Assembly: GCA_022826385.1 (NCBI GenBank) | Contig: JAJDUZ010000052.1 | Location: 1-64,000, forward strand | Length of the DNA stretch: 64,000 bases | Source: Silicimonas sp. | GTDB lineage: Bacteria > Pseudomonadota > Alphaproteobacteria > Rhodobacterales > Rhodobacteraceae | Reading direction: 5' to 3' | Shown: positions 46,567 to 47,538 of the stretch, in pieces | Layout: every line of letters starts with the position of its first letter | How positions within the stretch are numbered: position 1 is the first letter of the stretch | The notes under the pieces: generated by a model | What the model saw: the letters and a program-made list of their open reading frames with translations, nothing else | Databases searched by the model: none | What the model was told of the DNA's origin: nothing | Made by a program: the position numbers and the translations under genes

Positions 46567-46642
<76 letters not shown>

Positions 46643-46685: not shown

Positions 46686-47141
46686 TTAGGCCCGCTCGTC
46701 GGCCTCGCCCGTCCAGCGTCGCGGTCCGGCCCCGTTTTCGCCAAGCACGTCCTCCGGGTTGTAAAGCGGGCAATTGTCCAGCGAGAGGCAGCCGCAGCCG
46801 ATGCAGAAGCCCATCTGGTCGCGCAAACGCTGCAAAAGCTCGATCTTCTCGTCCAGCATGTCGGCCCATGGGCTGGCCGCCGCGGCCCAGTCGTCCTTGC
46901 CCACGGCCTTGTCGCGCGGCACGCCGTCCAGCACGGCTTTCACCTCTTTCAGCGACACCCCCACCGTCAAAGCGACACGGACGATGGCGATCCGGCGCAA
47001 TTCGCGCCGGTCATAGCGCCGATGATTGGCCGGGGTCCGCCAGCTTTCGATCAGCCCTTCCGCCTCGTAATAGTGCAGCGTCGACACCGGCACCCCGGCC
47101 CGTGCCGCCATCTCTCCCACGCTCAGATCGTTCGGTCGCAT
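46686..47141 (-). CDS. soxR: Redox-sensitive MerR-family activator SoxR
   Basis: LSVGEMAARAGVPVSTLHYYEAEGLIESWRTPANHRRYDRRELRRIAIVRVA; [2Fe-2S] motif CIGCGCLSLDNC. Confidence 0.95.
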   Translation of the reverse strand: MRPNDLSVGEMAARAGVPVSTLHYYEAEGLIESWRTPANHRRYDRRELRRIAIVRVALTVGVSLKEVKAVLDGVPRDKAVGKDDWAAAASPWADMLDEKIELLQRLRDQMGFCIGCGCLSLDNCPLYNPEDVLGENGAGPRRWTGEADERA

Positions 47142-47161: not shown

Positions 47162-47192
47162 TTTATCTCAAGTGAACTTGAGGTCGTAGCGT
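47162..47192 (+). promoter_or_regulatory. SoxR box inside 19-bp-spacer promoter
   Basis: TTTATC-(TCAAGTGAACTTGAGGTCG,19)-TAGCGT; palindrome TCTCAAGTGAACTTGAGG (47166-47183) matches the SoxR operator CCTCAAGTtaACTTGAGG. Confidence 0.85.
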
Positions 47193-47227
47193 GAAACACA
47201 ATGGAACCCGAATCAAGGAGCAAACGA

Positions 47228-47389
47228 ATGGCAAATCCCCTGCTGACACTGGCCACAAGGCTGGAGCGCATCGCCGCCGAACGCCGCGCCCGGCGCGCGC
47301 GCGAACTGGTGCAGTCCGACCCCCACCTTGCCCGCGACATCGGCCTGCCCTATCGCCCCCGCGAACCGCGGAGGGTCGAGCCATGGTAA
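47228..47389 (+). CDS. 53-aa DUF1127-like small protein
   Basis: AAGGAG RBS 7 nt upstream; MANPLLTLATRLERIAAERRARRARELVQSDPHLARDIGLPYR, DUF1127-like D..L.RDIGL. Confidence 0.75.
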   Translation: MANPLLTLATRLERIAAERRARRARELVQSDPHLARDIGLPYRPREPRRVEPW

Positions 47390-47538
47390 TGCTGCGCCTG
47401 AAACGGCTGATGCCACCCCGAAACCGCGACAGCCGGCTCTCCCGCTCGGTCCAATCCGAGATCGCCAGCATGGCGCGCGCCGACGCATTGGAGGCATTCG
47501 TGAAGGAGAGATGCAGGAAAAACCCGGCCAAGTGCTGA
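47383..47538 (+). CDS. 51-aa small protein, start overlaps the upstream stop
   Basis: ATGGTAA overlap with preceding ORF; MVMLRLKRLMPPRNRDSRLSRSVQSEIASMARADALEAFVKERCRKNPAKC. Confidence 0.5.
   Translation: MVMLRLKRLMPPRNRDSRLSRSVQSEIASMARADALEAFVKERCRKNPAKC

Follow-up and report, generated by a model that had tools for sequence, protein, structure and literature searches.

SoxR-type promoters have the SoxR box between the -35 and -10 elements, in an over-long spacer of 19 bp, and are activated by oxidised SoxR. To our knowledge, the targets of SoxR are pumps, redox enzymes, monooxygenases or the regulator SoxS. The locus described here is similar to soxR-soxS of Escherichia coli in having a single box between divergent genes, an over-long spacer and a near-identical operator, but it has no gene for an AraC-family activator such as SoxS. 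In Stenotrophomonas maltophilia, mfsA is a proven SoxR target with the promoter TTGACC-19-CATGCT and the SoxR box between the two elements (PMC4411124). The features in common with that locus are a divergent target, a box in a 19-bp spacer after TTGACC, a weak -10 and a box near the soxR start, whereas mfsA encodes an MFS efflux pump and the target here is a set of small proteins. The SoxR-VOC (glyoxalase-like) divergent loci of other Rhodobacteraceae have the same promoter anatomy and belong to the same bacterial family, and the VOC gene of the present genome also has a SoxR box. Their divergent target differs in that it is an enzyme-like VOC protein.

The locus is in a 64,000 nt stretch of DNA from Silicimonas sp., a marine member of the Rhodobacteraceae; the whole stretch was analysed and is termed the window. 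The gene soxR (positions 46686–47141, minus strand) encodes a 151 aa redox sensor of the MerR family with a [2Fe-2S] cluster. Its score with the TIGR01950 equivalog model is 176.4 bits (cut-off 116.9), and the four-cysteine [2Fe-2S] motif C-x2-C-x-C-x5-C is present in the translation as CIGCGCLSLDNC. A tRNA-Val (tac) is found at positions 46567–46642, directly downstream of soxR. On the opposite side, past A/B or the box, several relatives (L015, L020, L028, L029, L049, L054 and L073) have a tRNA-like sequence.

The promoter region at positions 47162–47192, gcTTTATCtcaagtgaacttgaggtcgTAGCGTg, is divergent from soxR. It consists of a -35 element TTTATC (47162–47167, plus strand), a 19-bp spacer (47168–47186) and a -10 element TAGCGT (47187–47192, plus strand), with the SoxR box in the spacer (47166–47183). 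The box is an 18-bp palindrome, TCTCAAGTGAACTTGAGG, that is conserved in relatives and differs from the consensus CCTCAAGTTnACTTGAGG by one mismatch when read on the minus strand and by two on the plus strand. An 18-bp palindromic box between -35 and -10 elements that are 19–20 bp apart is characteristic of SoxR-activated promoters, and the 19-bp spacing found here is also conserved. A reading made earlier from the sequence only had proposed TTTATC-19-TAGCGT with a near-perfect SoxR operator in the spacer; the exact sequence is confirmed, and the operator match is far above chance. It is the sole match with up to three mismatches in the 64-kb window, where shuffled sequences give a mean of 0.06. 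The 3.38-Mb assembly has two sites with up to one mismatch to the box pattern, one of them the window site, and a reversed-pattern control with up to three mismatches gives one forward and no reverse matches in the whole assembly. A 22-nt pattern of promoter plus box recovers the same two assembly sites, with no control matches. An ordinary sigma-70 scan (16–18 bp spacers) shows no promoter on either strand at the soxR/ORF A region. The window -35 and -10 elements are weaker than those of most relatives, and this counts against reading the region as a SoxR promoter.

The promoter was also said to point at small open reading frames, and this is borne out. ORF A (47228–47389, plus strand) starts 44 nt past the SoxR box, after a Shine-Dalgarno sequence AAGGAG (47215–47220, plus strand), and encodes 53 aa with the pattern DPHLARDIGL...W. 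ORF B (47383–47538, plus strand) encodes 51 aa and has the motif (C)GPLCRxVxxEVxSI in relatives. The end of A and the start of B overlap in ATGGTAA (47383–47389), which provides the Trp and stop codons of A and the ATG of B. A and B together form a two-gene operon, and this operon rather than a single ORF is what the promoter points at, so the single-target wording of the sequence-only reading has to be widened by a second, unrelated small gene. Profile comparison shows that ORF B is related neither to A nor to DUF1127 (hhalign probability 0.1 for the latter), and it has no family in Pfam or NCBIfam. It is a separate, unnamed family. AF2 models display two helices for ORF A (4–30 and 32–38, pLDDT 88) and one long helix for ORF B (pLDDT 82).

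The short, fast-evolving ORFs could be leader peptides or part of a regulatory RNA, i.e., the promoter would be SoxR-controlled but the true product would be the transcript or a gene farther downstream. In two clade I loci, L013 and L061 (see below for the clades), the small ORF that comes first after the SoxR box is followed by a DUF4386 membrane-protein gene. The target operon can thus hold other genes, which is in line with this explanation. On the other hand, conservation extends to the reading frames and to motifs in the proteins, and the pooled pN/pS values of 0.55 (ORF A) and 0.64 (ORF B) reveal constraint at the protein level, with synonymous sites near saturation so that the values are a rough guide only. 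No downstream gene is shared across the loci, and the window has no obvious plus-strand gene closely downstream of B. Rfam matches near the locus are tRNAs only, so a CcsR-like RNA downstream, as is found behind ccaF1, is unsupported. No convincing terminator is seen after B. A leader or RNA function is given a very slight chance.

A SoxR-protein scan of genome contigs gave 38 loci, and of 150 Rhodobacteraceae genera sampled, 67 have SoxR. In the regions around these soxR genes, the divergent ORFs were screened with profiles built on A and B. The SoxR tree has two clades (support 99/92), and neighbour-gene labels cluster on it far more than in shuffles. Clade I consists of 44 Rhodobacteraceae loci, the window included, and A and/or B are opposite soxR in 38 of them: both in 20, A only in 11 and B only in 5 by HMM, with 2 more found by eye. 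In clade II, a VOC gene is opposite soxR in 48/53 loci by a motif test. In a logo made from 40 promoters of clade I and 53 of clade II, CTT(G/T)ACC overlaps the box at its left edge, and the spacing to a TA-type -10 is exactly 19 bp. By the clade I logo, the -35 of relatives is TTGACC or TTTACC and their -10 is TAnnnT. The TT(G/T)ACC-19-TA anatomy is shared by both clades and is directed at the gene divergent from soxR. The distance from box to start is 41–49 nt in all clade I loci but one, L019 from Boseongicola aestuarii. In this locus ATA is found in place of the relatives' start ATG while the Shine-Dalgarno sequence is retained, and ORF A either begins at ATA or encodes a shorter protein. 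A search of plasmids found SoxR proteins of less than 60% identity only.

Only 24 bp separate the box from the start codon of soxR, and autorepression by SoxR is therefore probable. It could be proposed that the box has this role alone and that the small ORFs lie there by chance, with a separate promoter or with none at all, and soxR does occur without A/B in some clade I species. The promoter elements, though, flank the box in a single orientation, toward A/B. A promoter was counted as intact when the -35 had TT, the -10 had A and T, and the box had no more than 2 mismatches, at the 19-bp spacing. It is intact in 36/38 A/B loci and in 0/6 clade I loci without A/B, where it has decayed (Fisher P 4e-6, kinship uncorrected). 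The association of promoter and A/B thus exceeds that of mere proximity. Further, in a genome with a clade II, VOC-linked SoxR (G099), A and B are on another contig with no soxR alongside, yet retain a SoxR box, TTGACCTCAAGTATACTTGAGGTCGCAT, with one mismatch (the box sequence is also given as TTGACCTCAAGTATACTTGAGG). Autoregulation as the sole role of the box is consequently very improbable, and comparison strongly supports SoxR as the putative regulator of the A/B promoter. The earlier proposal that the divergent target is neither a pump nor soxS stands in so far as a SoxR-type activatable promoter and a small-protein target are concerned, on the basis of conservation in many genera, joint loss of promoter and genes, and the unlinked A/B copy that keeps its box.

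Boxes away from soxR are few. The Silicimonas genome has a second strong box on contig 36, TTGACC-19-TAGACC, which is 41 bp before a VOC/glyoxalase-superfamily gene (L007:1079–1518). This gene is the usual divergent soxR neighbour in clade II, and it has that place in most other Rhodobacteraceae sampled. Eleven clade I genomes have 1–3 SoxR boxes each, compared with 0–1 for the reversed-pattern control, and boxes not at soxR precede a VOC gene in G113, G147, G134, G080, G098 and G067 as well as in the present genome. G113 has a third, weaker site, and the box away from soxR in G128 has no clear ORF. The number of boxes, the VOC genes behind them and the A/B box in G099 suggest a very small SoxR regulon to which both the A/B and the VOC operon would belong. 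A lineage-specific SoxR apparently governs only 1–3 promoters per genome, those of a tiny-protein pair and a VOC protein. Which of the two operons adjoins soxR looks to vary by lineage, with the other sitting apart. Within one bacterial family, SoxR lineages thus differ in the target that adjoins soxR.

The locus very likely represents a SoxR-activated promoter that drives a two-gene small-protein operon. From established SoxR biology, a box between -35 and -10 elements 19 bp apart is expected to leave the promoter silent with reduced SoxR and open with oxidised SoxR. Reduced SoxR would be bound at the box in the over-long spacer with the promoter off, and redox-cycling compounds would oxidise its [2Fe-2S] cluster. 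Oxidised SoxR would then distort the DNA such that RNA polymerase could use the -35 and -10 elements. An mRNA with a short leader would be translated into A and, by way of the stop/start overlap, into B. The two proteins, A arginine-rich with its two predicted helices and B with one long predicted helix, may act as joint adaptors that tune expression or signalling in redox stress by binding RNA or a regulatory protein; such an adaptor role is the most likely one by analogy. Since dozens of related bacteria share this conserved arrangement, A/B probably belong to the defence against redox-cycling compounds. Species with A alone, B alone or merged ORFs hint that A and B work together: one ORF matches both the A and B profiles in L060 and L069, and the ORFs of L013 also look merged by eye. 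These forms interchange with separate A and B, and some clade I species are without both, so A/B are not essential to SoxR function.

The target had been labelled DUF1127-like, and this holds at the profile level but not at the level of Pfam. An ORF A family profile aligned with six DUF1127 proteins by hhalign gives a probability of 95.7 (E 1e-8, 38 columns). Against Pfam, ORF A finds nothing even at E 10, and NCBIfam likewise gives nothing. The gathering score of DUF1127 (PF06568) is 23.3 bits; it is not reached by A, and one of 21 family members matches at E 0.011. ORF A is thus a remote DUF1127 relative as judged from profiles only. It is similar to YjiS, the Agrobacterium SDPs and Rhodobacter CcaF1 (PMC12501420) in being short and arginine-rich (12 Arg in 53 aa), with two helices (predicted in A) and a DIGL motif. 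It differs in its lack of a Pfam-level match, its own pattern DPHLARDIGL...W, the pairing with B and the SoxR-type promoter. Searched at E 1e-6 against a class-level sample, the A profile finds no relative in the 288 other genomes, and the A family is therefore apparently limited to the Rhodobacteraceae. A functional role was considered for the Trp conserved at the end of A. Its codon falls within the ATGGTRA overlap with B in many loci, though the residue also persists in some species where no B was detected.

For other DUF1127 proteins, binding to RNA (CcaF1) or to the sensor kinase PhoR has been reported (PMC12501420). ORF A may accordingly be an ordinary DUF1127 protein of the YjiS/CcaF1 kind that has been captured by SoxR, with the usual RNA- or PhoR-related role and with B incidental. 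This is compatible with SoxR control and refines the functional part of the preferred explanation. The profile match, the arginine content and the five Pfam DUF1127 genes that the genome has at other loci speak for it, while the missing Pfam match of A, the occurrence of B without A in several species and overlapping A in others, and the merged ORFs that match both profiles speak against it. It is a plausible reading that falls short of being probable. A wider proposal is likewise offered tentatively, as something that may well prove wrong: that A/B are a SoxR-induced pair replacing SoxS or a pump, in which a DUF1127-type RNA or kinase binder and its dedicated partner relay the redox signal, so that SoxR output would be post-transcriptional or post-translational across this group of Rhodobacteraceae. 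Both regulator and promoter belong to known kinds. As a target, the lineage-restricted two-gene small-protein operon is new as far as the open-licence literature was searched, where no earlier report linking SoxR to DUF1127, to glyoxalase or to small proteins was found. DUF1127-type proteins, whose role is debated between RNA and kinase binding (PMC12501420), gain here a probable inducer and a partner gene, which provide a clean experimental handle.

SoxR often seems to switch its neighbour gene. Rhizobium SoxR branches beside clade I, and in L044 and L045 a variant box, CCTCAACCAAGGTTGAG, whose left edge carries TTGACC, faces an apparent MFS transporter gene (assigned by eye; a 60-residue piece has no Pfam match). 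Single SoxR loci with other divergent genes are L048, L052 and L102, where weak matches to DUF1330 and to the Endoribonuclease L-PSP family are found, along with what may be a membrane transporter. Weaker matches to the A profile within the family (L135, L136, L137, L138 and L139) were set aside as DUF1127-type genes without a SoxR box. They form a separate subfamily with the pattern DPHLLRDIGL...FW, are mostly divergent from a gene for a GntR/MocR-like regulator, and possibly represent another pairing of a regulator with a DUF1127 protein.
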